From contig JABJJO010000166.1 in NCBI GenBank assembly GCA_018660825.1, positions 1-64,000 of the forward strand: DNA of 64,000 nucleotides. Direction: 5' to 3'. Numbering within the stretch: the stretch's first letter is position 1; the number at the start of each line of letters is the position of its first letter. The DNA is from Planctomycetaceae bacterium (lineage in GTDB: Bacteria; Planctomycetota; Planctomycetia; Pirellulales; Pirellulaceae). Positions 49,561-64,000 of this stretch are shown here, one piece after another. The translations under genes were made by a program, and so were the position numbers. The notes beneath the pieces were generated by a model. That model saw nothing but the letters and a program-made list of their open reading frames with translations. It was not told where the DNA came from and ran no database searches.

Positions 49561-49822
49561 CGGTCGAGAGAATCAAAATATGGTCGCCGTTAACAACTTG
49601 GGTATCCAACGACCTTACAAATTGCTCTCCGTTGAGATTAATGATTGTTTCGCGAGATAATTCGTTTCCAGTTAAGCATTGTTCGCCAAACGTAGTATGC
49701 CGTCGCGCAATTTCGGTAAGTACGTCGGCGAGCGATATCGGAGCACTGGTAAATGAAAGCGAATCCGAACTGATGCCTGTCTTTTGTCGGGGCACTCCAA
49801 AATATTCGATCGTAACAAACAT
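49547..49822 (-). CDS. moaD: MoaD/ThiS-family sulfur carrier linked to the AOR gene
   Basis: 91 residues with beta-grasp composition and the diagnostic C-terminal Gly-Gly (STDAGG), the site that is adenylated and thiocarboxylated. ISLADVLTEIARRH and NGDHILILSTDAGG are typical MoaD segments. It delivers sulfur for molybdopterin dithiolene formation. MoaD-type partners beside AOR genes are known in archaea and anaerobic bacteria. Its gene overlaps the AOR start by 14 bases, indicating coupled translation. moaE, moeB, moaA and moaC are not in the window. Confidence 0.85.
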   Translation of the reverse strand: MFVTIEYFGVPRQKTGISSDSLSFTSAPISLADVLTEIARRHTTFGEQCLTGNELSRETIINLNGEQFVRSLDTQVVNGDHILILSTDAGG

Positions 49823-51025: not shown

Positions 51026-51409
51026 TTACTCTTCCTGATAGCCATCTTGATCGATAACTTCAAATACATAACCGTTGGGATCCTGAAAGAAGAAGCGTTC
51101 GAATGGCGTGTCCCGTAGGGGATCGATGAGCGTAGCGCCGTGTTCGACAAGCCTTTGTTTAAGGTCAGAAAATCCGCTGCCTGGTTGAAAGATGGCGAAG
51201 TGTCTACCAAATTCCGCTTCAAACGGAGATGGTTCAAATCCTTCTACCAACAATAAATGTAGTTGTTGATTTTCAGTAATATTGAGCCAGTCCGCGGTGC
51301 GGTTGATGTTATTTGGCTTGGAAATAGGTGTCCAACCTAACGTGTTTTGAAAAAATAGGCTGCTCGTCGCAACATCACGAGTGGCAATAGTGAAGTGGGC
51401 AAATGTCAT
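51026..51409 (-). CDS. VOC (glyoxalase/bleomycin-resistance) superfamily protein
   Basis: 127 residues with the paired beta-alpha-beta-beta-beta modules of the vicinal oxygen chelate fold: FAHFTIATRDVATSSLFFQNTLGW at the start and a C-terminal FFFQDPNGYVFEVIDQ, where the Glu would ligate metal. H5 in the first strand and H52 in the middle fit a metal site. Reaction unknown; lactoylglutathione lyase is a poor guess without more motifs. Convergent with DUF1080 (15-base gap). Confidence 0.88.
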   Translation of the reverse strand: MTFAHFTIATRDVATSSLFFQNTLGWTPISKPNNINRTADWLNITENQQLHLLLVEGFEPSPFEAEFGRHFAIFQPGSGFSDLKQRLVEHGATLIDPLRDTPFERFFFQDPNGYVFEVIDQDGYQEE

Positions 51410-51553
51410 TGGTTGGGTCCTTTGTGTTTGACGTCTCTTCTATCATAGGCGGGTTTACCTATACAATAAAGCTGGAACAAGAAAGGTCGCTCCCGCTGCA
51501 AAATTCAAATGGCTCGACGATCATCAGAATAGACGTGCAAATGTAGAATAGAA

Positions 51554-53209
51554 ATGGGAATCAGGATGGGATTAAGACTATGTGGATTATTACTGGCGAT
51601 CGGTTTTTTGGTTTTGACGATTGGATGCGGAGCAGAATCAGAGCCGGAATCTCCGGCACAGGTGAAAACCAAAAAAGTGATACCTGGGGTGAATGCTCCT
51701 TTAACGGGCACTGCCAAAGCACGCCCGAAACGAGAGCAGCCTAAGCCAAGCTTAAATCTCGAGATTGAACCTCCGTCACAACAAACGGTTCGTCCGGCTA
51801 CGGCAATTCATCCTGAAGTCAACCAGCTTTTGGAAAGGTTCAAACAGTCCAAAGATGACGCTCCAACGTTGGTTGTATGGATCGTGGACCGTACTAAGAG
51901 TGCGGCAAATATGGTGGATGCAGTCAAGATGCAAACGCAGTATTTTTATGATGGTTTGGTCATTGAAGAAGAACAACAAACGGAAACGAATTCGGAAGAA
52001 GCGTTGACGGAGCAAACACAATTATTGACCTCCGTTTATTCTTTTGGTGAGTCAACGGAACGGCATTTAGCAGCGTCCGGTGATTTCAAAGCGGTGACCG
52101 CAGCGTTTACGCAAATTTCGATCGATTCCTCTGGTGTGGAAAATTCATTTGCCGCTGTACGACAGGCGACAGACGACGTATTGGATTTTCGCCGTAAGCA
52201 AGGATACGAAGTGTTTTTAGTCGTTGTAACTGATGAAGCAGGTGATGACCAGGATCAGGCGGAGTTGTTGCGGAGTGATTTAGCAAAGTACGTAATTCCC
52301 GTATACGTTGTTGGTGTGCACGCGCCCTTTGGGAAACGCGCAATTTTACCAGAACATGTTGAGGCTGGGGTGGATGGGGCCGCTGGTCGGATGTTTATCA
52401 ATCAAGGCCCCGAGACGCGTGATACAGAACAATTATTGATGGAATATCCAACAGCTTCGATGGTAACGGAAACTGTTGATAGCGGTTTTGGTCCATTTGC
52501 ATGGGAATACATTTGCCGTATCAGCGGTGGCTCCTTTCTAGCCTTGCGAGCGCCTGGTTACACCTCATCGATGTTGAACCGACCGGGTAGCCGTCCGGTG
52601 GCGTTGATTGGTTCATACAAGCGTTCGTCGCTGCAGAAATACGCTCCTGATTATATTAGCCAGGCAGAGTATGAGGCCAAAATTCAAGAAAACAAAGCGT
52701 TAGCTGCTTTGATTCAAGTATCCAAGCTGGAAACGATCCCAGTGCTGAATAATCCCAAACGGGATTTTGTGAAGCGCGATGAAGCAGGGTTCAGTCGTGA
52801 TTTGAGCCAATCGCAACTGACGGCGGCGCAACTAGAACCAGCGCTGTTGCAAGCTTATGAAATATTGCGGCTTGGCGAATCTGACCGCAGCAAGTTGACG
52901 AACTTGCGTTGGCAAGCTGGATATGATTTGGCGATGGGTCGATTGCTAGCTGCGCGTTCTCGTGTGGAAGGTTACAACGCGATGTTGGCATTAATGAAGC
53001 GCGGCAAAACATTTGAAAATGAGACGAGTACAACTTGGGTGTTAGTGCCATCGATGGATACAGAAGTGGGAAGTGTGATTAAGAAGATTGGAGAACGAGC
53101 GGTGCAGTATTTAGAGCGTGTGAAGACCGAGCATTCAGGGACTCCCTGGGCCCGAATGGCAGAAATGGAATTACAGGTTCCTGTCCACTGGCAATGGCAA
53201 GAACAATAA
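51554..53209 (+). CDS. Lipoprotein with von Willebrand factor A-like domain
   Basis: 551 residues. A lipoprotein signal ends VLTIGCGAE; ATG 51554 and 51569 are both possible starts. A Pro/Lys-rich linker follows. From about residue 100 the sequence fits a vWA domain: LVVWIVDRTKSA is a DxTxS variant of the MIDAS motif, and VFLVVVTDEAGDD follows, so metal-dependent protein binding is possible. The C-terminal 200 residues are helical (YEILRLGESDRSKLTNLRWQ) and of no family I recognise. Envelope-facing. Followed by a 54-codon ORF. Confidence 0.8.
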   Translation: MGIRMGLRLCGLLLAIGFLVLTIGCGAESEPESPAQVKTKKVIPGVNAPLTGTAKARPKREQPKPSLNLEIEPPSQQTVRPATAIHPEVNQLLERFKQSKDDAPTLVVWIVDRTKSAANMVDAVKMQTQYFYDGLVIEEEQQTETNSEEALTEQTQLLTSVYSFGESTERHLAASGDFKAVTAAFTQISIDSSGVENSFAAVRQATDDVLDFRRKQGYEVFLVVVTDEAGDDQDQAELLRSDLAKYVIPVYVVGVHAPFGKRAILPEHVEAGVDGAAGRMFINQGPETRDTEQLLMEYPTASMVTETVDSGFGPFAWEYICRISGGSFLALRAPGYTSSMLNRPGSRPVALIGSYKRSSLQKYAPDYISQAEYEAKIQENKALAALIQVSKLETIPVLNNPKRDFVKRDEAGFSRDLSQSQLTAAQLEPALLQAYEILRLGESDRSKLTNLRWQAGYDLAMGRLLAARSRVEGYNAMLALMKRGKTFENETSTTWVLVPSMDTEVGSVIKKIGERAVQYLERVKTEHSGTPWARMAEMELQVPVHWQWQEQ

Positions 53210-53254
53210 ACAACATTCAACAAACAACAACCGGCACTGAATCGAGTAATTAAG

Positions 53255-53419
53255 ATGGATAATAACGACCAAGACGCTCAGCTTCCAATCTTTTCCCCAC
53301 CGGAGATTTCGACCCCCGAATTGGTGACGGTTGATATGTTTAATGAACTTCAGTTGGAATTGCAACAATTGCGAGCAGAATTTGCTGTGTTGCGCAACGA
53401 TATAGTGGGCGGCAGATAA
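53255..53419 (+). CDS. Small hypothetical protein, 54 residues
   Basis: ATG 53255 to TAA 53419, 45 bases after the vWA lipoprotein gene on the same strand. The sequence is acidic with a Pro-rich first half (LPIFSPPEISTPELVTVDMF) and an amphipathic heptad-like second half (NELQLELQQLRAEFAVLRND), which suggests a short coiled coil. It ends 2 bases before the convergent PNP gene stop. RBS is poor. The in-frame, protein-like composition and the position support it, but it could be non-coding. Confidence 0.5.
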   Translation: MDNNDQDAQLPIFSPPEISTPELVTVDMFNELQLELQQLRAEFAVLRNDIVGGR

Positions 53420-53421
53420 TA

Positions 53422-54258
53422 TTACTCGCGGTTAATATTATCCAAAACGGTCATGACGATCGCATGCAGTTTGGGTTCGGCGAGTTGTGCGATATCAATT
53501 ACACCTGCGGCAGTGGTTTCAATCAATGCATCAGGCTTGGCGACATTGGTAACCGCGGACAACGCCAAGATTCGCATCCCCAAGGCGTGAGCGACTAACA
53601 CTTCGGGTACCGTCGACATTCCGACGACGTCACCACCGATTTTGCGAACCATTCGATATTCGCTGCGAGTTTCATAATTTGGCCCCGTGAGTGCGACGTA
53701 ACACCCTTGCTGTAAATAGAAACCTTCGCGACGTCCAGTTTCCAGAGCGTCTTCGATTAGCTGCGGATCATAGATTGGCGATTTAATATGGTTGTGATTT
53801 TGAGTGAACGCAGCCAATTGCGGGTTCACTCGGAAAGTGAGATTGATGTGATTATTCATGACGAGAATATCGCCACCGGATAGATTTGTATTTACACCAC
53901 CACTGGCATTGGAAACGATTAGAATATCGGCTCCTAATTTGTGCATGACATGTAGAGGCAAGACAGCAGCATTGATCGGGTGTCCTTCATATAAGTGGAA
54001 TCGCCCTTGCATGGCAATCAGCGGAACCCCTTTGATCGACCCGGATACTAGTTGTCCTTTATGATCGGGCGCTGAGGAGTGAGGAAAGTGTGGTATGTCG
54101 GTGTAGGAGATGGCGACTGGAGTTTCGATTCGGTCGGCAAACTGCCCTAAGCCGGTGCCTAGAATGAGCGCAACACGAGGTGTTTGTTTGGTGCGTTGCT
54201 GCACGTAAGCATATGCTTCTTGAATTCGCTGAGAATCTAACATACATCTGTTGTTCAT
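53422..54258 (-). CDS. Purine nucleoside phosphorylase, trimeric type (Asn form)
   Basis: 278 residues of the PNP/MTAP family II. Phosphate and ribose site motifs: ILGTGLGQF, GQLVSGSIKG, MQGRFHLYEG and SNASGGVN. The base-site Glu lies in GPNYETRSEYR. The specificity residue is Asn 238 (SAVTNVA), matching human PNP Asn243, which favours guanosine and inosine. It cleaves purine nucleosides with phosphate to base and ribose-1-phosphate. It lies 29 bases downstream of a paralogue with Asp at this position, so the two are probably one operon with divided substrate range. Confidence 0.92.
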   Translation of the reverse strand: MNNRCMLDSQRIQEAYAYVQQRTKQTPRVALILGTGLGQFADRIETPVAISYTDIPHFPHSSAPDHKGQLVSGSIKGVPLIAMQGRFHLYEGHPINAAVLPLHVMHKLGADILIVSNASGGVNTNLSGGDILVMNNHINLTFRVNPQLAAFTQNHNHIKSPIYDPQLIEDALETGRREGFYLQQGCYVALTGPNYETRSEYRMVRKIGGDVVGMSTVPEVLVAHALGMRILALSAVTNVAKPDALIETTAAGVIDIAQLAEPKLHAIVMTVLDNINRE

Positions 54259-54287
54259 GCGGTTTATGGCGGTTGTTTAAACTCTGC

Positions 54288-55115
54288 CTAAGATTGCTCT
54301 AAGGCTAGTACGCCTTTCACCAAAGTTGTCAATCGTGGTTCTGCTTCGTTGGCGACGGCGATGATTTCCTCGACGTTAGCCGGTTTTAATGCGTCAGCCA
54401 GACACATATCGGTAATAACAGAGAATCCAACACAACGCATACCACAATGCACCGCGACAAGGATTTCTGGAACGGTGGACATGCCGACGACGTCAGCGCC
54501 GATGGTTCGTAAGAATCGGTATTCGGCGCGAGTTTCTAAATTAGGTCCAGCGACCGCAACAAACACACCGCGGTGTGCCACGATATCGGCATTGCGTGCG
54601 ACGGCGAGGGCGCGGTCGACTAGGGCCAGTTCGTAGGGTTCACACATGTCTGGGAAGCGTGGTCCGAGTCGGTCATCATTGACTCCAATTAGTGGATTGT
54701 CACCCATTAAATTAATTTGATCTTCGATGATCATGATGTCACCACAGCGATAGGTTGGATTCATGCCGCCACAGGCATTGGACACCACAAGTAGTTCAGC
54801 ACCCATTGCTTGCATCACCCGCACTGGCAAAGTGATCAACTTAAGTGGATAGCCTTCATACATATGCATCCGACCTTCCATTGCCATGACGGGCAGTCCC
54901 TTGAGAGTGCCACAGACTAGTCGGCCGGCATGACTGACAGCGGTGGATTGAGGAAAGTGTGGAATATCAGCGTAATCCAAGGTTACTTCGACATCGATTT
55001 CTTCGACTAGGCTGCCGAGCCCAGTGCCGAGTATAATTCCAGCATGGGGTGCCTTATTCCATTGGTTGCGGATGGCCTGTACTGCTTCTTCTATTTTGTC
55101 AAACAAATCCAACAT
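54288..55115 (-). CDS. Purine nucleoside phosphorylase paralogue (Asp form)
   Basis: 275 residues, homologous to the next gene: ILGTGLGSL, GRLVCGTLKG, MEGRMHMYEG, SNACGGMN and GPNLETRAEYR. The residue equivalent to human PNP Asn243 is Asp 236 (SVITDMC). Asp at this position is found in MTA phosphorylases, and it lets a human N243D mutant act on adenosine. This enzyme may therefore accept 6-aminopurine nucleosides or methylthioadenosine. First gene of the two-gene leftward operon and divergent from fwdD. Tandem duplication followed by divergence is the simple reading. Confidence 0.92.
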   Translation of the reverse strand: MLDLFDKIEEAVQAIRNQWNKAPHAGIILGTGLGSLVEEIDVEVTLDYADIPHFPQSTAVSHAGRLVCGTLKGLPVMAMEGRMHMYEGYPLKLITLPVRVMQAMGAELLVVSNACGGMNPTYRCGDIMIIEDQINLMGDNPLIGVNDDRLGPRFPDMCEPYELALVDRALAVARNADIVAHRGVFVAVAGPNLETRAEYRFLRTIGADVVGMSTVPEILVAVHCGMRCVGFSVITDMCLADALKPANVEEIIAVANEAEPRLTTLVKGVLALEQS

Positions 55116-55221
55116 GGGTTATTCACTATTGTAATGTGATAGGGGTATTTAATATTAAGTAGCTTAGTGTACATCAAACCTCATATGAAGACTAATGACC
55201 TTAGAGTGCAGGGTCAACGCA

Positions 55222-55257
55222 ACCGTTCGCTGGATTTCCCCCCTAGCGGAAAACGGT
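55222..55257. promoter_or_regulatory. Bulged 10-bp hairpin in the PNP/fwdD divergent region
   Basis: ACCGTTCGCT (55222-55231) pairs with AGCG (55245-55248) and AACGGT (55252-55257), with a three-base GAA bulge and a 13-base loop containing a C-run. It lies about 108 bases before fwdD and about 107 before the PNP start. It could be an operator or a 5'-leader element. I do not see the conserved Moco or Wco riboswitch core. Confidence 0.4.
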
Positions 55258-55364
55258 CGTTCAATCCAAAATACATGAATAACTCCTCGTAAAAAGTCGA
55301 TTTAATACGAAGAAGCACTGCGGTATAAATTACAAACACGTCTTCTTAGTTGATCAGTTTCAAA

Positions 55365-55718
55365 ATGATAGAAACATATATTTTGATTCCGGGTCGTACC
55401 AGTAAACAAGGTGTGGGAATCAGTGAAGGTAAGTTTGGTGAAACATATCAAAGCGAAATTACCTGTTTGCAGGTGGCGAGCGAAGATATGATTTCCCGTG
55501 GACTAACTGATGGCGATTGGGTACGGCTTGAAAGTGAATTTGGCCAAATCGAGGTTGCCGTTAAAACAGCGCGTCAAGATGAACTTCCATCGGGTTTACT
55601 GTTTATTCCCTATGGCGATTTATCGAGTCGACTCATGGGAGGGGAAACTCACGGCACGGGGATGCCGACAAGTAAAGGATTTGATGTAACCATGCAGCCA
55701 ATAGCTACACCAAGCTAG
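55365..55718 (+). CDS. fwdD: Formylmethanofuran dehydrogenase subunit D (molybdopterin dinucleotide-binding)
   Basis: 117 residues from ATG 55365; TTG 55350 is less likely. The domain is the molybdopterin-dinucleotide-binding barrel. ILIPGRTSKQG, SRGLTDGDWVRLESEFGQIEV and LLFIPYGD, then ETHGTGMPTSKGFDV, follow FwdD/FmdD closely. With FwdB it builds the bis-pyranopterin tungsten or molybdenum site that interconverts CO2 and formate ahead of the formyl-methanofuran step. Methylotroph Fhc complexes have no D subunit of this kind, so its presence argues for a redox-active complex. fwdB follows after 178 bases on the same strand. Confidence 0.9.
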   Translation: MIETYILIPGRTSKQGVGISEGKFGETYQSEITCLQVASEDMISRGLTDGDWVRLESEFGQIEVAVKTARQDELPSGLLFIPYGDLSSRLMGGETHGTGMPTSKGFDVTMQPIATPS

Positions 55719-55896
55719 CTGCTAGTCATTGATTGTAGATCAAAGTTCTACAGCAAAAAACTGGAGGCGTTAAGCTCTCCCGTCGTTTAAGTTACTAACG
55801 TGCGCACCAAAATGTGAGACCATTTAAGGTCTGGCGAGATTTTGGAAGTACTTAAAACGAGCACTGAATCGCACGCAGCAGTGGAGGGTGCCAATA

Positions 55897-57294
55897 ATGG
55901 CTACTGTTACTCCTGATGCGTCGTCAGAACATGAGCTAAAGGTCATCACTGATGCAACCTGTACTTTTTGTGGTTGCGTTTGTGATGATATCGATCTTAC
56001 GGTCGACGGAGATCACATAATAAAAGCGAAACGTGCTTGTGTCTTGGGCAAAGCGTGGTTCTTGAATCATACAGCGGATGATCGTCCGTCGTGTCTAATT
56101 CAAGGTCAAGCAGCTTCCGTCGAAGCGGGTATCGAGCGGGCAGCAGAGTTGTTGGTTTCGGCACGCTATCCGTTAATCTATGGTTTGAGCGATACGACTT
56201 CGGAATCGCAACGAACAGCGGTGGGAATTGCCGACTGGGTTGGTGCGAATATTGACACGACCAGTTCAGTATGTCATGGCCCGACAGGTATGGCCTTGCA
56301 AGGTGTCGGGGAGGTTACCGCATCATTGGGAGAAGTACGCAATCGAGGGGACATGATTATTTTTTGGGGCGCAAATCCCGCTGAAAGTCATCCACGACAC
56401 TTTACTCGATATAGTCTGACGCCCAAAGGAATGTTTTTACCGAATGGTCGTAAAGATCGCACGTGTGTGGTGGTTGATGTTCGTAAAACCAAATCCGCCA
56501 ATGCTGCTGATATTTTTATTCCAGTTAAACCGCGTAGCGATTTTGAAGCACTGTGGGCCTTACGCGCGTTGGCCAATGATGTGGAGTTAGATGCGAATCA
56601 AGTATTGCATGACACCGGTATTGAACTATCGGTGTGGCAGGACTTAATGACACGTATGAAAGCGGCAAAGTTTGGCGCGATTTTCTTTGGTATGGGTTTA
56701 ACGATGACTCGAGGCAAGCATGCCAACGCTGAAGCGCTGCTGGCATTGGCCCGTGACATGAACAAGCACACTCGTTTTATTTGCAAGCCAAACCGCGGCC
56801 ATGGTAATGTCACCGGCGCAGACAATGTGATGGCTTGGCGGACCGGTTATCCGTTTGGAGTTAATTTGATGCGTGGGTACCCGCGGTTTAATCCAGGTGA
56901 ATATACCGCTTCGGATATTCTAGCTCGACAAGAAGCAGATGCCGCAATGATCATCGCCGCGGACCCCATGGCTAATTTTAGCCAGCCAGCACGCGACCAT
57001 CTTAAATCGATTCCCTATATTGCGTTTGACCCCAAAGAGACACCGACGACGCGTGCGGCTGAAGTGGCGTTTACGGTGGCCACCTATGGCATCAACGTAC
57101 CAGGGACCGTGTATCGTATGGACGATGTTCCGATTTCCCTGCGCCCCGCACTCGAATGTCATCATCCAAGCGACCTCGAAATACTCAAAGGGATCGAGAA
57201 ACAGGTGCAAAAACTAAACATGAAGAATGCAATAGCACAATCTAAAAATGAGAGTTTGCGGCCAGCTCGAGACGAATTCGGCTCTAGCGAATAG
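55897..57294 (+). CDS. fwdB: Formylmethanofuran dehydrogenase subunit B (catalytic), W/Mo site residues intact
   Basis: 465 residues from ATG 55897, with GGAGG at 55883-55887; GTG 55888 would sit on the box. The [4Fe-4S] ligands C22, C25, C29 (TCTFCGCVC) and C48 (RACVLG) are present. SSVCHGP carries C126, equivalent by my alignment to Cys118 of Methanothermobacter FwdB, the tungsten ligand (Sec in some species). LGEVRNRGDMIIFWGANPAESHPRH and TCVVVDVRKTKSANAADIF complete the pterin-binding core. It should be the redox-active subunit, using a tungsten or molybdenum bis-pyranopterin. FhcB of aerobic methylotrophs has lost these residues. Cys is coded TGT at 56272, not UGA. The 3' end overlaps the DinB-like gene tail-to-tail by 11 bases. 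Confidence 0.93.
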   Translation: MATVTPDASSEHELKVITDATCTFCGCVCDDIDLTVDGDHIIKAKRACVLGKAWFLNHTADDRPSCLIQGQAASVEAGIERAAELLVSARYPLIYGLSDTTSESQRTAVGIADWVGANIDTTSSVCHGPTGMALQGVGEVTASLGEVRNRGDMIIFWGANPAESHPRHFTRYSLTPKGMFLPNGRKDRTCVVVDVRKTKSANAADIFIPVKPRSDFEALWALRALANDVELDANQVLHDTGIELSVWQDLMTRMKAAKFGAIFFGMGLTMTRGKHANAEALLALARDMNKHTRFICKPNRGHGNVTGADNVMAWRTGYPFGVNLMRGYPRFNPGEYTASDILARQEADAAMIIAADPMANFSQPARDHLKSIPYIAFDPKETPTTRAAEVAFTVATYGINVPGTVYRMDDVPISLRPALECHHPSDLEILKGIEKQVQKLNMKNAIAQSKNESLRPARDEFGSSE

Positions 57295-57811
57295 GCTCTT
57301 TTGAAAGCAAGCGGCGGAGTAGGCCGATTTGGCCTGCATGGAGCATTTCATGGTGAATACAAAACAACAGACAACCCAACTTCGTTGGGTAAGCAGCGTA
57401 TGGATCGTCGACAGGATCGTTGAGTTGATCCAGCGGATATTCAGCCAGTTCCGACATGGATTGGTCATAGATTGCATGAAACACACTCAAAATAACATCG
57501 ACCGACGGATAAAACTCGGGATCACTAGAGACGGTGGTTCCCCGCGAAAACTTCTTGCGGAACGACGACGACATCAGGTTGCTGTCGTCCAAACTACGTC
57601 CGCGCTGCCGGAACAACAACAAACCGTATTGGGCCATAGCCAAATGACCAACTTGCCAAGCAACATGAGTTGCCGCTGCATTGGGTTGATCCAACAGATC
57701 CGCCTGTTGAAACCACTGATCATGGTCGATATCATCAAGCAGCGTCATGGTATACGCTCGAGCGGTTGTGATTTGATCAATGGCCATTTGAAGTTTAATT
57801 GCATCTGACAT
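57284..57811 (-). CDS. DinB-like superfamily protein
   Basis: 175 residues, four-helix DinB/YfiT type. Potential metal histidines lie in THVAWQVGHLAMAQYG (about residues 49-57) and in CIHHEMLHAGQIGLL (about 153-159), matching the usual three-histidine site. These proteins include thiol transferases and enzymes of unknown substrate. It sits on the opposite strand between fwdB and fwdA, so it is not part of one rightward transcript with them. A link to C1 metabolism is unproven. Confidence 0.82.
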   Translation of the reverse strand: MSDAIKLQMAIDQITTARAYTMTLLDDIDHDQWFQQADLLDQPNAAATHVAWQVGHLAMAQYGLLLFRQRGRSLDDSNLMSSSFRKKFSRGTTVSSDPEFYPSVDVILSVFHAIYDQSMSELAEYPLDQLNDPVDDPYAAYPTKLGCLLFCIHHEMLHAGQIGLLRRLLSKEPIR

Positions 57812-57848
57812 TATTTAAGATCCCCAACTGGTTGCTTTTAGTATCAAA

Positions 57849-57861
57849 CGGTAACATACCG
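57849..57861. promoter_or_regulatory. Short palindrome between dinB-like and fwdA
   Basis: CGGTA (57849-57853) and TACCG (57857-57861) are exact reverse complements around ACA, in the 99-base divergent region, 49 bases before the fwdA ATG. Candidate operator. A lone CGGTA also occurs before fwdD, but this is too short to argue for a regulon. Confidence 0.3.
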
Positions 57862-57910
57862 CAACAAATATTAATCAGTAGTACCGAAAAACAAGATTAG
57901 TGAAAACGGC

Positions 57911-59581
57911 ATGTCTAAACCTTATTTTAAAATCTCCGGCGGTTATGTTTACGATCCATTAAATGGAGTGGATGGTCAAGTACAGGATATTTGGGTTCAA
58001 GATGGACGAATTGTTCCAGCTCCGGTTGCTGGGATCCGCGCGGATCGCACGCTAGATGCGGCCGGTTATGTGGTGATGCCCGGTGGTGTTGATATGCATT
58101 GTCATATTGCTGGGCCTAAGGTCAATATGGGTCGCAAGATGCGCCCGGAAGAAAAACGTCAAGGCGAAGTTATCCCGCGCACGTTAACCACCCACAGTGG
58201 GACACTGGGTAGTGTGCCGAGCACGTTTGCGACAGGTTTTAAATATATCGGATTGGGATATACCTCAGCTTTTGATGCGGCTGTTCCGCCATTGTCAGCA
58301 CGTCATGCCCACGAAGAGTTTGCGGATACGCCCGCCATCGATAAAGGGTTCTATGTCCTCATGGGCAATAATCACTTCATGATGAAGTCGATTTCAGAAG
58401 AAAACCCGAAACAACTAAAGGCATTTATTGCCTGGTTACTTGGCGCTACAAAAGCATACGCACCTAAGTTGGTGAATCCTGGTGGTGTAGAAGTATGGAA
58501 GCATCATCCTGCGGGCAACGTCGACACCATTGATCAAATAGTCGACCATTACGAAGTCACACCGCGGCAAATCATCAGCGAAGTTGCCCGCGCAACAAAT
58601 GAACTTGGATTACCCCATCCGGTGCACATCCATTGTAATAACCTCGGTATGCCTGGGAATTGGAGCACCACGCTTAATACCATGGATGCTCTCAATGGCT
58701 TTAAAGGCCATTTAACTCATATTCAATTCCATAGTTATGGTGGTGGCGAAGGTTCGGAAGAATCTTTTTGTTCTAAAACGACTGAGCTCGCAGACTATAT
58801 TAACACCCATGACAATCTGACGGTGGATGTGGGGCAAGTTATGTTTGGGAAAACGACCAGCATGACGGGCGATGGGCCGCTGGGTTATTTTTTGCATAAC
58901 GTTTACGGCGGGAAATGGCTGAGCGTTGATACGGAAATGGAATCAGGATGTGGCATCGCGCCGATTGAATATCGCAACAAGAGTCTTGTTCACGCATTGC
59001 AATGGGCGATTGGTTTGGAATGGTACTTGTTAGTGGAAGATCCCTGGCGAGTTGTTATGAGTACCGACCATCCAAATGGTGGTTCGTTTATGGCTTATCC
59101 ACAGATTATCCGTTTGTTGATGGATGCCACGTATCGCAATGATGTTTTAAGAAGCGTTCATCCGGATGTAATGAGTCGGTGTGTGTTGGGGGATATTGAC
59201 CGAGAGTATACGTTAAATGAAATTTGCATTATCACGCGAGCGGGGCCCGCGAAAATATTAGGCTTGAAACACAAAGGCCATTTAGGCGTTGGTGCGGATG
59301 CGGACATTACGATTTACTCGCCCCACGAGAACAAAGAAGTGATGTTTGAAATGCCACGCTACGTTATCAAATCAGGCGAAATACTGATTGATGAATGCGA
59401 ATTAAAACAACAAACCTTCGGCAAAACATTTAACGTCGCACCGGCTTACGATGTTGAAGTGGAAGCCGACATCGCTGATTGGTTTGAACAATATTACAGC
59501 GTCCAGTTTCGTAACTATCCGATATCGGATGATTATGTGCACGATTCAGAATTAGTTGACTGTCACGAGAAGGAGTCTTAA
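57911..59581 (+). CDS. fwdA: Formylmethanofuran dehydrogenase subunit A (metal-dependent formyl-group hydrolase)
   Basis: 556 residues of the amidohydrolase superfamily. The binuclear-metal motif is GGVDMHCHIAGPKVNMGR (His-x-His near residue 61). A mid-protein metal lysine (GGVEVWKHHPAG), VHIHCNNLG with further metal ligands, and STDHPNGG (catalytic Asp) follow. It transfers the formyl group between formate and methanofuran or an analogue. Length and motifs match FwdA, and equally FhcA of methylotrophs, so this subunit alone does not tell the two complexes apart. It lies downstream of the dinB-like gene on the fwd strand. Confidence 0.93.
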   Translation: MSKPYFKISGGYVYDPLNGVDGQVQDIWVQDGRIVPAPVAGIRADRTLDAAGYVVMPGGVDMHCHIAGPKVNMGRKMRPEEKRQGEVIPRTLTTHSGTLGSVPSTFATGFKYIGLGYTSAFDAAVPPLSARHAHEEFADTPAIDKGFYVLMGNNHFMMKSISEENPKQLKAFIAWLLGATKAYAPKLVNPGGVEVWKHHPAGNVDTIDQIVDHYEVTPRQIISEVARATNELGLPHPVHIHCNNLGMPGNWSTTLNTMDALNGFKGHLTHIQFHSYGGGEGSEESFCSKTTELADYINTHDNLTVDVGQVMFGKTTSMTGDGPLGYFLHNVYGGKWLSVDTEMESGCGIAPIEYRNKSLVHALQWAIGLEWYLLVEDPWRVVMSTDHPNGGSFMAYPQIIRLLMDATYRNDVLRSVHPDVMSRCVLGDIDREYTLNEICIITRAGPAKILGLKHKGHLGVGADADITIYSPHENKEVMFEMPRYVIKSGEILIDECELKQQTFGKTFNVAPAYDVEVEADIADWFEQYYSVQFRNYPISDDYVHDSELVDCHEKES

Positions 59582-59617
59582 AAAAAGAAGTGGTCTGCGA
59601 GATGGGCTGCAGTGTTA

Positions 59618-60286
59618 TTAACCCGAATTCTGTAACATTTCAATGATGTGTGGTTGGGCAATTAAACCGGCTTGTTTTATAGCCGCAAAATAGTCGTCCG
59701 CTTGATTGAGATTCGCCAGACTTGTCAGTTGCGGGTCGGATTTTTTAAGGAGATCCGTGGATACCGGATTTGTAGTAACTTGGTCATACAAAAACAATGG
59801 CCGCCGACGTTGTGCGGTTAAGAGTTCGTCGATCACAGGAATCAAATGAGTGCGGTATACGGCAGCCAAAGGATGCAGAAAACCATCTTCGCTGGCGACG
59901 GCAACGTCATGTTCCTCGTCAGCATCAAGTTGGTCAATTAATGTTTGAATAAAACCGGGAACTAACAAAGGAACATCACAACCAGTTACAAATGCTGCTG
60001 TTGCTGTGTGTTCGACGGCGGCCAAGCCCATCCGAATGCCTTCGAGTGGACCTTGGTTAGGCTGGCGGTCATGAGTAACGATGATGGAATCTGATAACGG
60101 CGGCAGTTTTGTAGCGGGACCAGCTACGACGACAATTGGAGAAACAACACGATTGAGGATGCGAATGACCCGTTCAATCATGGTCTCGTCGCCGAAAGGC
60201 AGCAAGGCTTTGTCGGTTCCCATACGTTGGCTTTGGCCGCCGCAGAGGACGATGCCGGCAACGGTGGATACGGGAGTGTCTGTCAT
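59618..60286 (-). CDS. mobA: Molybdenum cofactor guanylyltransferase
   Basis: 222 residues from ATG 60286, with AGGAT upstream; the frame extends to 60379 but would overlap fwdC. The nucleotide motif GIVLCGGQSQRMGTDKA, GPLEGIRMGL and VTGCDVPLLVPGF (metal Asp) identify MobA. It links GMP to molybdopterin to form the dinucleotide that FwdB/FwdD-type enzymes bind in pairs. It sits between fwdA and fwdC on the opposite strand, sharing the promoter gap with fwdC. The location supports a functional tie to the Fwd complex. Confidence 0.92.
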   Translation of the reverse strand: MTDTPVSTVAGIVLCGGQSQRMGTDKALLPFGDETMIERVIRILNRVVSPIVVVAGPATKLPPLSDSIIVTHDRQPNQGPLEGIRMGLAAVEHTATAAFVTGCDVPLLVPGFIQTLIDQLDADEEHDVAVASEDGFLHPLAAVYRTHLIPVIDELLTAQRRRPLFLYDQVTTNPVSTDLLKKSDPQLTSLANLNQADDYFAAIKQAGLIAQPHIIEMLQNSG

Positions 60287-60356
60287 AGTGTTATCCTGAA
60301 TACGGTCGTAAACAAATAGTAACGGAAGGTAGAAAGTAAAGATAGGTAATTGACTA

Positions 60357-61175
60357 ATGACGTTGGAACTTGAATACATTGGCGATACGACGATTCCCGT
60401 GGAGCTGCAGGGTGTGACACCTTGTCGGCTTCGTGACTTGTCGTTGTCTGAAATTGAAGGGATGGAGATCTACCATGGGAAAGAAATTGTTTCCTTAGCA
60501 GATTTCTTTAAGATATCGGGTGATCTCTCAGATGAGCAGATGCGTTTGTCTGGTGACTTGTCAGGAGTACACTGGATTGGTTCAAAAATGGAGTCGGGCT
60601 CGATAGCGATCAGGGGAAACTGTGGCCGGCATCTCGGCAGTGAAATGACGTCAGGAACAATTACTGTGCAGGGCAGTGCCAGTGATTGGGTAGGTGCCGA
60701 AATGCGTGGTGGTTTGATTTATATTAAGGGTGACGCAGGACACCAAGTTGGTGCAGGCTATCGCGGCAGCTCTACCGGAATGAATCGCGGCACGATTTTA
60801 GTTCACGGTGACGTGGGGAATGAACTTGGATTAACGATGCGGCGGGGATTGATTGCGGTTGGCGGTAAGGCGGGCGATTTGATTGGGTTTAACATGCGCG
60901 CTGGGACGATTATGTTGTTTGGCGCGTCGGGGATTCGTCATGGAGCCGCGATGCGTCGGGGAAGCATTGTATTTATGGGAGCAGACCATCCGCCGTTATT
61001 GCCAAGTTTTAAATATTCTTGTCGGTACCAACCTGAATTCATGCAGTTGTTGTTGCGTAATCTTCAAAACCTCGGGTTTCCTGTTCCAACTAGTGTCGTT
61101 GATTCGACTTATGATTTACACCATGGTGACATGATAGATGGTGGCCGCGGCGAGGTGTTGTTAAGAGTGTCCTGA
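60357..61175 (+). CDS. fwdC: Formylmethanofuran dehydrogenase subunit C
   Basis: 272 residues. A run of Gly-rich turns spaced about 19 residues apart (GRHLGSEMTSGTITVQG, ASDWVGAEMRGGLIYIKG, GNELGLTMRRGLIAVGG, GDLIGFNMRAGTIMLFG) forms the right-handed beta-helix shared by FwdC and the glutamate synthase GXGXG domain. In Fwd it is a structural subunit that holds A and B and lines the formyl-methanofuran channel. ATG 60357, with AGGT near 60344. It completes a D, B, A, C set. No E, F or G iron-sulfur subunit and no Ftr follow. Confidence 0.92.
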   Translation: MTLELEYIGDTTIPVELQGVTPCRLRDLSLSEIEGMEIYHGKEIVSLADFFKISGDLSDEQMRLSGDLSGVHWIGSKMESGSIAIRGNCGRHLGSEMTSGTITVQGSASDWVGAEMRGGLIYIKGDAGHQVGAGYRGSSTGMNRGTILVHGDVGNELGLTMRRGLIAVGGKAGDLIGFNMRAGTIMLFGASGIRHGAAMRRGSIVFMGADHPPLLPSFKYSCRYQPEFMQLLLRNLQNLGFPVPTSVVDSTYDLHHGDMIDGGRGEVLLRVS

Positions 61176-61215: not shown

Positions 61216-63135
61216 TTATGCAGGATGATTCCCGCTCAACCCAGCGGCGGCCAATTGGCTTTGAAACGATTCGCTTTCCAAAATTGCCATAAACTTCTCT
61301 ACGGCCGGTTTATGAAAACGGTTGACTGGGATAAAAAAATCGTATTGTTCATCTGTTAGTGGCAAAAATCCTAGCTCATCGTTTACGACACTTTTAATGG
61401 CGACACCCCAATCCGCGGTCGCATGTTTGACTGTGGTTGCCACGGCATGATGACTACGCGAGAGAAACGAGTAACCAGCCGGACGAAGTTCTTGCAACAA
61501 GTCATCGATTAAAATTCTTGTGCCGGAACCCGTATTGCGATTTACCATACGTAGCGAGCTATCCGAGGCAATTGTTGCTAGTACCATCTCGAGTGATTGA
61601 TTTTCAAACCGAGTGTCACCCTTACGAAAGACGATGCCTTGCGTGCGTCGGTAACCCGGTACGAGTTGAATCGACTTGTCGACGAGTGATTCGTTGTAGA
61701 TGCCGGTCACGGGATCCAGTAAATGACATGGTGCAATATCACATTCTCCCCGCCGTGCGGCTGCCACCCCCGCAGTCGAGCCGACGCTAATCAGCTTACT
61801 GTTAACACCTTGACGTTGTAGTTCGGCAAGCAATAGATCGATGCCTGTGCAATGACTGCCAATGACTACAAGGTCGGCGATCTGTAAATTACGACCGAGC
61901 AGGGTGACATTAATATCTTCATTGGCTGCAACAATTTCATGGTGTCGGTCAATCGTCACGAAACCGTCTGCATGGCTAAACGTGGTGACACTACCAGAAC
62001 CTTTCCCCATGGGGTAGGCAACAAAAGCTTCGTTTGCTTCAACGAGTCCGACTAACAGAAATTCCATTCGCCCAATCTCTGAGTTTACTTTGACAGCCAT
62101 TTTTGCTGCGACAGTTGCGGGGCTTTTCATTGTGCTTCCCGCTAACCTGCGAATAACCGGTGCCACGAATTCGTGAAATGTAAAAATGGCGGACGTAGGA
62201 AATCCCGGCAAAATAACTATCGGTTTGCCACCGGATCCAGCTAAGCAAATAGGTTTGCCTGGTTTCAAGGCAACACCGTGGGCGACGATTCCTGGGTCGT
62301 CCAGTTTTTCAACAACGTTACAACACAGATCTCCTTCGCCTTTGCTCGTGCCCCCCGAGAGCAATACAACATCACACTCTGCTAGGGACTTATCAACGAT
62401 TGCCTGCAGTTCATCTTCGTCGTCACGTACAATCCCTTGGTAAACGGGCGCGCCGCCACATTCACGGACAGCGTCGGCGAGAATACGAGCGTTCGAATCG
62501 TATACCATGGCGACTTGCATCGGTTCGCCAGGCGCAATGATTTCGTCACCGGTTGAGACTATGGCGACTTTGGGTTTTCGAACGACTGAGATATCCGCCT
62601 CTCCGATCGCCGCCAAGACTCCGGTTTCGCGACTTGTCAGTATCTGGCCTTGTCGCAGAACCATCTCACCAACGGTGATATCAGTCCCCGCATATGCCAC
62701 CCCAAAACCACTATGGATATTGCGGTAAACGAGTACCTGATCATTTTCCGTTCCGCTATGTTCCACCATGAGCACTGCATCGGCACCTCGTGGTATCATT
62801 CCACCGGTTGCAATTGGAATGGTCGCTGCCGCCGTCACTTCCATTTGAGGAACAACCGCCGTAGCAATGGATTCGGGTAATTGTTGCAAGCGAATCGGGT
62901 TGGTTTCACTCGCGCCGTGTGTGTCTTCGGCACGAACAGCGAACCCATCGTAATTGGACCGGTCAAAGGATGGCACGTTATGTTGAGAGATGACGTCAAT
63001 CGCGAGCACTCTGCCAAGTGCCTCGGCGAGTGGTACGATCTCACATTCCAAGGGTTGCAGATCAATTGCTTGGTGAAATAACTCTTGAGCAGTATCACGA
63101 TCAATCACGTCGAGAAATTGTTTTTGTTCGGCCAT
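61216..63135 (-). CDS. moeA: MoeA fused to a periplasmic-binding-protein-like domain
   Basis: 639 residues. The N-terminal 410 residues are MoeA (metal insertion into adenylylated molybdopterin): PSFDRSNYDGFAVRAEDT, IATGGMIPRGADAVLMVEH, VAIVSTGDEI, LSGGTSKGEGD and LPGFPTSAIFTFHEFV. The last 220 residues are a PBP-like domain (ADLVVIGSHCTGIDLLLAEL; MVNRNTGSGTRILIDDL), known in archaea and some bacteria as the MoeA-LysR-substrate-binding type. It may sense molybdate, tungstate or a cofactor intermediate; this is inference. It follows another moeA by three bases, so the two are one operon. Confidence 0.92.
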   Translation of the reverse strand: MAEQKQFLDVIDRDTAQELFHQAIDLQPLECEIVPLAEALGRVLAIDVISQHNVPSFDRSNYDGFAVRAEDTHGASETNPIRLQQLPESIATAVVPQMEVTAAATIPIATGGMIPRGADAVLMVEHSGTENDQVLVYRNIHSGFGVAYAGTDITVGEMVLRQGQILTSRETGVLAAIGEADISVVRKPKVAIVSTGDEIIAPGEPMQVAMVYDSNARILADAVRECGGAPVYQGIVRDDEDELQAIVDKSLAECDVVLLSGGTSKGEGDLCCNVVEKLDDPGIVAHGVALKPGKPICLAGSGGKPIVILPGFPTSAIFTFHEFVAPVIRRLAGSTMKSPATVAAKMAVKVNSEIGRMEFLLVGLVEANEAFVAYPMGKGSGSVTTFSHADGFVTIDRHHEIVAANEDINVTLLGRNLQIADLVVIGSHCTGIDLLLAELQRQGVNSKLISVGSTAGVAAARRGECDIAPCHLLDPVTGIYNESLVDKSIQLVPGYRRTQGIVFRKGDTRFENQSLEMVLATIASDSSLRMVNRNTGSGTRILIDDLLQELRPAGYSFLSRSHHAVATTVKHATADWGVAIKSVVNDELGFLPLTDEQYDFFIPVNRFHKPAVEKFMAILESESFQSQLAAAGLSGNHPA

Positions 63136-63138
63136 GAT

Positions 63139-64000
63139 TTAGTTGTACCGAAAAACGGTAACCTTGCAATCGCCCGCATAACCTTCAAGGTTTTCATTAA
63201 TGACTACAAAACCATCCGCTGTAGTGGTACTACTCAAGACGCTAGCACCGCCAATTGCAAGTGGATGTACCTGGCCGTCAATAATTATTACTCGAGCATA
63301 ATCAGTACGACCGATTGCCGAAACTAGTTTCCGAGCAAGTGGTAATTTTTCGCTAGGATATGGCCATTGTGCCGGCAAGCCAGACATTTGACGGATTGCT
63401 CGCCCCGCAAAAAAATCATAGGCGCACAAACAGGAGACGGGGTTACCCGGTAGTAAAAACACCAGCCGCCCGTCGAGCCGCCCCATGCCAGTGGGGCTAC
63501 TGGGTCGCATAGCGATGCCGTGAATATCAAGCGAGCCAAGTTCCGCCAGCAAACTAGGAGCGTAGTCTTCTTGTCCGACGCTCGATCCGCCTGCGACAAT
63601 AATAATGTCGGCGTCTGGATTAAGTAATGCATCACGGATACTGCTCGGATCGTCCGGCAGGATACCTGGGTGAATGACATGACCTCCATCGCGAGATATG
63701 AGGGCGGAGAGCATGGGGCTATTCGCATCGGCGATACAGAACGGAGTGGTTGCTGATCCAGGCGGCAGCAATTCATTTCCTGTGACAATAATTCGTACTT
63801 TTGGTTGGCAATGCACAGGTATTTCAGATAAGCCAATAGATGATAACACGCCGAGATCTTGGGGACGTAATATTCTTGCGGCAGTGAGCACGGTCGTTCC
63901 TTGTTGAATATCTTCACCGGGGAAGCCAACATGTTTTTGCGGTGCGACTTGGCCTTCCGCCAAAATAAAGTCCGCATAGATTTGCACTTGCTCGGCAGGT
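63139..64000 (-). CDS. Second MoeA family protein (5' part outside window)
   Basis: The frame stays open to the right edge; only about the last 287 residues are visible. Motifs: HVGFPGEDIQQGTTVLTA, ILRPQDLGVLSSIGL, VRIIVTGNELLPPG (molybdopterin-binding region), VAGGSSVGQEDYAPSLL and FLLPGNPVSCLCAYDFF. A GTG at 63987 could be read as a start, but conserved MoeA sequence continues upstream of it. Stop TAA 63139-63141 lies three bases before the MoeA-PBP start. Two consecutive moeA genes may handle tungsten and molybdenum separately, or act as paired subunits. Confidence 0.88.
   Translation of the reverse strand, partial: PAEQVQIYADFILAEGQVAPQKHVGFPGEDIQQGTTVLTAARILRPQDLGVLSSIGLSEIPVHCQPKVRIIVTGNELLPPGSATTPFCIADANSPMLSALISRDGGHVIHPGILPDDPSSIRDALLNPDADIIIVAGGSSVGQEDYAPSLLAELGSLDIHGIAMRPSSPTGMGRLDGRLVFLLPGNPVSCLCAYDFFAGRAIRQMSGLPAQWPYPSEKLPLARKLVSAIGRTDYARVIIIDGQVHPLAIGGASVLSSTTTADGFVVINENLEGYAGDCKVTVFRYN

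Follow-up and report, generated by a model that had tools for sequence, protein, structure and literature searches.

Can a planctomycete oxidise a formyl carrier to CO2, or does it carry a complex that only releases formate? Fwd, which oxidises a formyl carrier to CO2, is regarded as archaeal and anaerobic, and the aerobic, hydrolytic Fhc is seen as descended from it. The window analysed here, a stretch of 64 kb from a Planctomycetaceae bacterium, carries the genes fwdD, fwdB, fwdA and fwdC, whose products, an earlier note had proposed, could oxidise a formyl carrier to CO2 while reducing a low-potential acceptor; we find this proposal plausible. In our best explanation, to which we give a probability of roughly 60%, the window complex is a full FwdDBAC of the formylmethanofuran dehydrogenase type and not Fhc, whose FwdA would hydrolyse formyl-methylofuran and whose FwdBD, with tungsten or molybdenum, would oxidise the formate to CO2 and reduce a low-potential carrier. 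Behind this explanation stand observed genes, site residues, phylogeny, co-occurrence and linkage.

The window carries a fwdD, fwdB, fwdA and fwdC set

The four genes span positions 55365-61175, all on the plus strand, and the set is broken by two opposite-strand genes. Family models confirmed the set as it had been proposed, with A, B and C over their cut-offs and D recognised via Pfam Molydop_binding. The first gene, fwdD (55365-55718), is predicted from family models, PDB FwdD chains and co-occurrence to encode the molybdopterin/tungstopterin dinucleotide-binding subunit, which completes the active site of FwdB. Its product matched NF042908 with an E value of 2.6e-20 but with 72.8 bits, under the model cut-off of 175; it scored over the cut-off of Molydop_binding and matched PDB FwdD chains with a best E value of 1.8e-15, so that the reported presence of FwdD at the locus holds. 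The predicted catalytic subunit, assigned by family model (TIGR03129, 483.6 bits, cut-off 327.8), site residues, trees and structure fit, is encoded by fwdB at 55897-57294, starting from an ATG at 55897; an in-frame GTG at 55888 offers an alternative start. A DinB-like gene (57284-57811, minus strand), a conserved neighbour in 17 of the 80 named loci, sits between fwdB and fwdA. The latter (57911-59581; TIGR03121, 743.9 bits, cut-off 392.75) encodes an amidohydrolase subunit, the predicted formyl-methylofuran hydrolase, which keeps H63, H65, K186, H241, H270 and D386. We take these to be the zinc-site residues; they were matched by alignment to 5t5i_A/9sw6_I, and the zinc-site residues are retained in 46/46 rows. 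Between fwdA and fwdC lies a mobA-like gene for a molybdenum cofactor guanylyltransferase (59618-60379, minus strand; family models), a relative of which is found near fwdB in 22 of the 80 named loci. The GXGXG-repeat structural subunit is encoded by fwdC (60357-61175; TIGR03122, 243.6 bits, cut-off 130.65).

Family models and neighbourhood identify two moeA genes downstream on the minus strand. One, fused to a PBP-like domain (61216-63135), has a predicted role in metal insertion into the pterin; the second (63139-64000) has its start beyond the window edge and continues in L006. On the other side of the set, two purine nucleoside phosphorylase genes (53422-55115, minus strand) stand outside the system and serve as a landmark for the chromosomal slot.

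FwdB retains the metal-ligand motif

Counted from the ATG at 55897, FwdB has C22, C25, C29, C48 and C126 just as had been claimed. The metal-site residues C126-H127-G128-P129, R300 and H302 are the same in all five archaeal rows of the alignment, and the ligand motif is intact, unlike in Fhc, which is recognised by an FhcB devoid of it. The protein shares 35-42% identity with archaeal FwdB structures, and in the alignments the ligand Cys, the His and the Arg/His coincide. Compared as a single-chain model, it fits the tungsten FwdB 5t61_H with Z 31.8 over 407 residues and FhcB 6s6y with Z 24.1, the latter match beginning only at model residue 65.

The four cluster cysteines had also been put forward as a difference between Fwd and Fhc, and this part of the claim did not survive: they are kept in 29/29 FhcB-type rows (15/15 of group P3, 10/10 of group P4 and 4/4 proteobacterial), and are thus ruled out as a mark of redox-type FwdB. 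The other part, that Fhc lacks FwdD, stood (0/29). FwdD was present in 17/17 planctomycete genomes with Cys- or Sec-FwdB (groups P1, to which the window belongs, and P2, respectively) and in none of the 29 others; unlike the cluster cysteines, it is diagnostic of redox-type FwdB.

FwdB falls outside the FhcB clade

The expectation that FwdB would branch apart from FhcB was borne out in both trees, the first of which took in 27 of the 80 named loci. In the careful tree (62 rows), P1 and P2 formed a redox clade (96/94), with P2 as the sister of P1, and P3, P4 and proteobacterial FhcB formed another (86/94). An alternative tree with the Sec group outside P1 plus FhcB was not rejected (p-AU 0.108). 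Archaea were represented in the careful tree by just five rows, and NC10, Firmicutes, Synergistetes and Actinobacteria by none; half of the named rows and, of P4, three long rows (L077, L081, L082) were left out of it, and the alignments held 10 of 20 P4 genomes. The FwdA tree comprised 31 of 46 genomes, 11 named loci and four proteobacterial plasmid rows. For the later 46-genome searches we used the 47 TIGR03129-positive genomes minus G039 and G354 (weak, long frames), plus G274 (no hit). Several of the genomes, G291 and G307 among them, consist of one contig. In one locus, L168, the fwdB range contains one stop codon.

These results bear on the view that the complex is a hydrolytic Fhc, with FwdB and FwdD serving as inert scaffolds. 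Since P3 relatives keep the cluster cysteines (15/15 rows) and in 9/15 rows also the ligand cysteine, all without FwdD, residues alone can mislead, and glycine forms are noted in planctomycetes in PMC4807772. The window FwdB, however, keeps 78/78 core columns together with FwdD, where P3 averages 80% of the columns and P4 54%, although the columns were picked on the redox groups and the contrast is therefore partly built in. With the trees also placing FwdB outside Fhc, we regard inert scaffolds as very improbable.

A tungsten-type AOR is linked to fwdD

The window also encodes a tungsten-type aldehyde ferredoxin oxidoreductase (AOR; 47767-49560, minus strand), identified by domain models, a 1aor match and motifs: both AFOR_N and AFOR_C are present, 1aor is matched over its whole length (E 5.5e-87), and CAACTIGC is found at 291, EYE at 316, RGADH at 445 and DSLILC at 487. 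A moaD/ThiS-like gene for a small protein (49550-49822, minus strand; ThiS E 4.6e-06) overlaps its start. Among the 80 named loci, AOR lies near fwdB in 34, and in 19 it is directly upstream of fwdD, co-oriented and within 400 bases. The recurrent cluster reads moaD-AOR-fwdD-fwdB-fwdA-(ftr)-(mobA)-fwdC-moeA, with ftr in the operon in 16/80 planctomycete loci. The tungstate transporter genes tupABC are present in this genome, elsewhere than the cluster.

AOR of any type was found in 8/8 P1 genomes and in 62/384 others, a count that mixes AOR types; because the genomes are related, its Fisher value does not amount to a probability. The fwd-linked type (at least 53% identity to the window AOR) occurs in six of the eight P1 genomes, only AORs of about 30% identity being found in G130 and G061, and also in three P3-only genomes (G024, G137, G194), which lack FwdDB; no AOR was found in the nine Sec-FwdB genomes. 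AOR as an obligatory partner is thereby weakened.

Between tungsten and molybdenum the sequence itself does not decide. MoeA and MobA serve both metals alike, and the complex could be redox-active with molybdenum as its metal and hand electrons to a different acceptor, be it NAD, quinone or a dedicated protein from another locus; AOR and tungstate uptake would then be mere neighbours that share pterin genes. The nine Sec-FwdB genomes, whose complexes look equally complete without AOR, would agree with this, as would the lack of TupA, by the query used, in 4/8 P1 genomes. For tungsten speaks that the same query found TupA in the other four P1 genomes and in 0/27 others searched. We nevertheless judge it unlikely, as the tup genes adjoin moaD-AOR-fwdD in L217, and in G291 moaD-AOR-fwdD persists as a unit 3.7 Mb from fwdB.

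A proposed route from formaldehyde to CO2

Searching the genome for the H4MPT/methylofuran pathway, as had been suggested, revealed two full copies of fae together with mtd, mch, ftr and mfnB; the two ftr genes both lie away from the window contig. No second FwdB/FhcB passed the cut-off in the genome. RnfC, sought as an electron sink, gave no match over cut-off in this genome, nor did the formate dehydrogenase model TIGR01591 (best 486.5 bits versus 666.25). The idea that redox Fwd replaces formate dehydrogenase was rejected: there is no such anti-correlation, because six of the eight P1 genomes have a TIGR01591 match (G130, G061, G257, G365, G315, G291).

In our best explanation, whose metal, acceptor, direction and substrate tunnel we infer, formaldehyde would be carried over H4MPT by Fae, Mtd and Mch, and Ftr would pass the formyl group to methylofuran. 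At its binuclear-zinc site FwdA would release formate from formyl-methylofuran, and the formate would move inside the complex to a bis-pterin site built by FwdB and FwdD, there to be oxidised to CO2. The one [4Fe-4S] cluster in FwdB would pass the electrons on to ferredoxin or flavodoxin as a diffusible low-potential carrier; a diffusible acceptor is suggested because a FwdF/FwdG polyferredoxin gene is not at hand, no FwdF/FwdG-like gene being among the conserved neighbours of the 80 loci. Tungsten is the probable metal, given the AOR and metal-pterin genes of the cluster and the tungstate transporter encoded in the genome. By oxidising aldehydes, AOR would supply electrons to this low-potential carrier as well.

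For an archaeal CO2-releasing Fwd, PMC11493965 describes such a hydrolysis-tunnel-oxidation scheme, with a tungstopterin site that has the same cysteine; as near-identical archaeal sites run in either direction according to that source, the sequence does not fix the direction. AOR could therefore oxidise aldehydes to supply reduced ferredoxin that drives CO2 reduction by Fwd to formyl-methylofuran, bringing C1 units into H4MPT. In favour of this, the potential of aldehyde/acid couples is sufficiently low, and no pair is linked more tightly than AOR and fwdD. The two Fae copies, on the other hand, fit formaldehyde oxidation, and the same AOR is found in genomes without FwdDB, so that we hold this reversal to be quite unlikely.

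Redox and degenerate B subunits share a chromosomal slot

The rarity implied by the earlier note was not upheld: genome contigs held 460 related stretches, and the best 80 of the 460 all read SVCHGP. Nor is redox-type Fwd new to planctomycetes, a Sec-FmdB operon (fmdD-B-A-C) having been in print since 2016 (PMC4807772). We found no printed account, however, of the recurrent moaD-AOR-fwd-moeA cluster with tungsten AOR, together with a tungstate transporter elsewhere in the genome. The same applies to two further observations. In seven genomes one A subunit occurs alongside two B subunits, and within one family redox and degenerate B subunits occupy the same chromosomal slot, marked by the purine nucleoside phosphorylase genes, beside which family-mates hold a degenerate FhcB.

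We tentatively suggest, as a possible though doubtful picture, a planctomycete tungsten C1 module whose AOR and FwdDB are joined in one low-potential electron circuit. A single FwdA-FwdC core would take either the redox B-D pair, giving CO2 and reduced ferredoxin, or a cofactor-poor B, giving formate, and P3 B subunits would be living steps from Fwd to Fhc.

Both forms and intermediates thus lie within one phylum, side by side in genomes with one A and in the same slot of one family, and the origin of Fhc becomes testable in bacteria. An intact-looking archaeal-type enzyme here and a stripped-down version in near relatives, which should only release formate, make the change itself open to study within that phylum. 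Should the enzyme be active, formaldehyde would supply some planctomycetes with low-potential electrons which others lose as formate, and one could test whether bacterial C1 oxidation requires tungsten.

Comparison with known systems

Archaeal Fwd/Fmd (5t5i/5t61 of Methanothermobacter wolfeii; 8rja of Ca. Ethanoperedens) resembles the window complex in its A, B, C and D subunits, the Cys-His-Gly-Pro motif, the site Arg and His and the zinc-site residues of A. The planctomycete locus differs in its bacterial host, in having no FwdF/FwdG or F420-reductase subunit gene nearby, in an expected carrier that is methylofuran and not methanofuran, and in a cluster that adds AOR, moaD and moeA. With the planctomycete Sec-FmdB operon described in PMC4807772 (group P2, nine genomes) it shares the D-B-A-C set and the redox-type site, whereas that group has selenocysteine (an in-frame TGA) for cysteine, its own FwdA clade and AOR in 0/9 genomes.

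Fhc of methylotrophs (6s6y, Methylorubrum extorquens) is alike in the A and C subunits, the H4MPT pathway and the B fold (Z 24.1), but in the structural match its FhcB lacks a domain corresponding to the first 64 residues, and among FhcB-type rows the ligand motif or FwdD has been lost, both of which are present in the window complex. The actinobacterial fwdDBA-ftr-fwdC operon without FwdE/F/G (PMC7325909) shares the ABCD set, the catalytic cysteine and the absence of polyferredoxin genes, and it contains ftr, as do some planctomycete loci. Its host differs, being an anaerobe with the Wood-Ljungdahl pathway and, per the authors, no H4MPT synthesis genes, and no AOR linkage is seen in the parts of that source describing the operon. 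Finally, the planctomycete AOR is like that of Pyrococcus (1aor) over its whole length, in the cluster cysteines and in the conserved Glu/His motifs, and differs from it in being encoded with fwdD.

The fwd gene set and its neighbours in the window

The genes fwdD (55365-55718), fwdB (55897-57294), fwdA (57911-59581) and fwdC (60357-61175), all on the forward strand, lie where an earlier note had placed them. The FwdA, FwdB and FwdC products scored above the NCBIfam cut-offs, and FwdD was over the Pfam Molydop_binding cut-off, yet under the narrow NCBIfam FwdD cut-off. The genes do not form a single unbroken operon, as two opposite-strand genes intervene: a DinB-like gene (57284-57811) separates fwdB from fwdA, and mobA separates fwdA from fwdC. 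Downstream of the fwd genes there are two copies of moeA, one of them fused to a PBP-like domain. The DinB-like gene is a conserved neighbour at 17 of the 80 named loci, which are the top 80 among 460 related stretches.

FwdB of the window is not an FhcB

At an E-value of 1e-20, TIGR03129 matched 47 of 392 planctomycete genomes, with 25 over the cut-off, and the B subunits that were aligned fall into four groups. P1, found in the window genome and 7 others, carries the cysteine motif SVCHGP and is 64-68% identical to the window FwdB. P2 (9 genomes, 54-56% identity) has a TGA in frame at the ligand position, and in 8 of the 9 genes (L051-L059) the predicted fold contains a GC-rich short-loop hairpin approximately 20 bases downstream, as would be expected for a bacterial SECIS; these loci thus appear to encode selenocysteine FwdB, a form (Sec-FmdB) already published for one planctomycete (PMC4807772). 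P3 (15 rows, 41-49% identity) has Cys in 9, Gly in 5 and Ser in 1 at the ligand position, and in P4 (24-35% identity; 10 of 20 such genomes aligned) the ligand motif is lost.

The careful tree of 62 rows joins P1 (99/94) with P2 (100/100) in a single clade (96/94) and sets P3, P4 and the proteobacterial sequences in a second (86/94); a tree forcing P2 outside P1 plus FhcB was not rejected (p-AU 0.108). A quick tree of 78 rows agreed. Lying in the P1 and P2 clade, apart from P3, P4 and the proteobacterial rows, the window FwdB is therefore not an FhcB. In this tree, which has no rows from NC10, Firmicutes, Synergistetes or Actinobacteria, P3 takes the basal position on the FhcB side. A profile built from 17 FwdD rows detected FwdD in every genome whose FwdB is of type P1 or P2 (17 of 17) and in none of the 29 others.

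Planctomycete-type P1 FwdB is also present in two records titled Euryarchaeota archaeon (L155) and Acidobacteria bacterium (L223), the latter with the entire planctomycete gene order; these are probably mislabelled or contaminated bins.

Site residues and core columns of FwdB

In the alignment, Cys126-His127-Gly-Pro, Arg300 and His302 of the window FwdB are the same in all five archaeal PDB rows, counting as cysteine an unknown residue printed at that position in 9sfi_Q. Over 78 core columns, each unvarying in 97% or more of the 49 rows of redox-type and archaeal proteins, mean retention was 93% in archaeal, 100% in P1/P2, 80% in P3, 54% in P4 and 45% in proteobacterial FhcB rows, a contrast which is partly built in because the columns were picked on the redox groups. 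The predicted FwdB model (mean pLDDT 77.9, pTM 0.68) gave Z 31.8 (407 residues, rmsd 6.2) against M. wolfeii FwdB. Against Methylorubrum FhcB it gave Z 24.1, with the match beginning at residue 65. The four cluster cysteines had also been proposed to mark Fwd against Fhc, and this did not hold: they are kept in 15/15 P3, 10/10 P4 and 4/4 proteobacterial rows and are therefore uninformative on this distinction.

A possible route from formyl carrier to CO2

The window genome assembly (4.94 Mb, 96.6% completeness) is that of a planctomycete and holds one FwdA, one FwdB over the cut-off, two copies of ftr, one mch, mfnB, two full copies of fae with one weak partial match, an Mpt_N-type methylene-H4MPT dehydrogenase gene adjoining fae, and a tupABC tungstate-type transporter. 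The same genome gave no formate dehydrogenase match above the TIGR01591 cut-off and no RnfC match above its own. The two ftr genes (G000:C19:11166-11594 and C110:51133-51570) differ, and neither adjoins the fwd genes.

The scheme described for an archaeal CO2-releasing Fwd (PMC11493965) is hydrolysis, internal formate passage and oxidation. By analogy, the most likely working mode of the window enzyme would be that FwdA frees formate from the formyl carrier by hydrolysis, and that this formate would travel within the complex to the bis-pterin site that FwdB and FwdD form; CO2 would be released there and the electrons would exit via the iron-sulfur cluster. We infer the metal, the acceptor and the direction, and the last rests on pathway context because near-identical sites serve either direction, according to the same source (PMC11493965).

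AOR genes are frequent neighbours of fwdB

A tungsten-type aldehyde ferredoxin oxidoreductase (AOR) gene (47767-49560) lies 6 kb upstream of the fwd genes and is overlapped by a moaD/ThiS-like gene (49550-49822). This AOR would either supply the low-potential carrier that Fwd uses or take electrons from it. Neighbours were counted within at most 8 kb in the top 80 among the 460 related stretches, many of whose contigs end early. SVCHGP was present in 80/80 and fwdB was accompanied by fwdD in 64, fwdA in 46, AOR in 34, fwdC in 24, a moaD-like gene in 23, mobA in 22, moeA in 19 and 22, and ftr in 16; no ferredoxin gene was found among the conserved neighbours in these 80. AOR lies upstream of fwdD in the same orientation in 24 of them, at most 400 bases away in 19. 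One locus (L194) carries in succession, all on the same strand, moaD, AOR, fwdD, fwdB, fwdA, ftr and moeA, which overlap or are only a short distance apart; in another (L217) tupABC adjoins moaD-AOR-fwdD, its TupA and TupB matches being under their cut-offs; and in genome G291 moaD-AOR-fwdD stay together 3.7 Mb from fwdB. TupA occurred in 4 of 8 P1 genomes versus 0 of the 27 others searched.

A fixed AOR-Fwd link is counted against by G130 and G061, whose sole AORs are approximately 30% identical. The same holds for three genomes (G024, G137, G194; loci L252, L253, L254) that have the fwd-linked type of AOR without FwdDB, their B subunit being P3 only, and for the Sec-FwdB genomes, in none of which an AOR was found.

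One FwdA may serve two kinds of B subunit

Seven genomes (G087, G257, G266, G291, G307, G315, G365) combine a FwdB of redox type with a P3 subunit, each having exactly one FwdA, and at two loci (L212, L057) both B genes lie within one stretch. In the FwdA tree, A subunits from P1, P1+P3 and P3 genomes are intermixed in one group, and those of P2 operons form a separate one (support 100). From the single FwdA per two-B genome and the mixed group, we infer that one FwdA serves both B types. An intact P1 fwd cluster at L187 is followed downstream, at L187:15667-16059, by the remnant of another B subunit gene that contains a stop codon; L212 carries a full P3 gene at this site.

Three family-mates of the window genome (L076, L078, L083), compared with window positions 51026-57294, carry a P4 FhcB next to the pair of purine nucleoside phosphorylase genes that adjoins fwdD-fwdB in the window, and the further neighbours are shared as well. 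The chromosomal slot is the same and the type of B protein differs, degenerate FhcB versus FwdB. The window arrangement is found throughout in four named relatives (L145-L148).

Comparison with published systems

A limited literature search returned no AOR-Fwd link in planctomycetes. Redox-type bacterial Fwd has already been published (PMC4807772, PMC7325909, PMC10100899), with 149 bacterial FwdB proteins counted in the last of these. A 2016 opinion paper describes planctomycetes as being without fwdD (PMC5020050); the genomes analysed here and the 2016 Sec-FmdB paper say otherwise.
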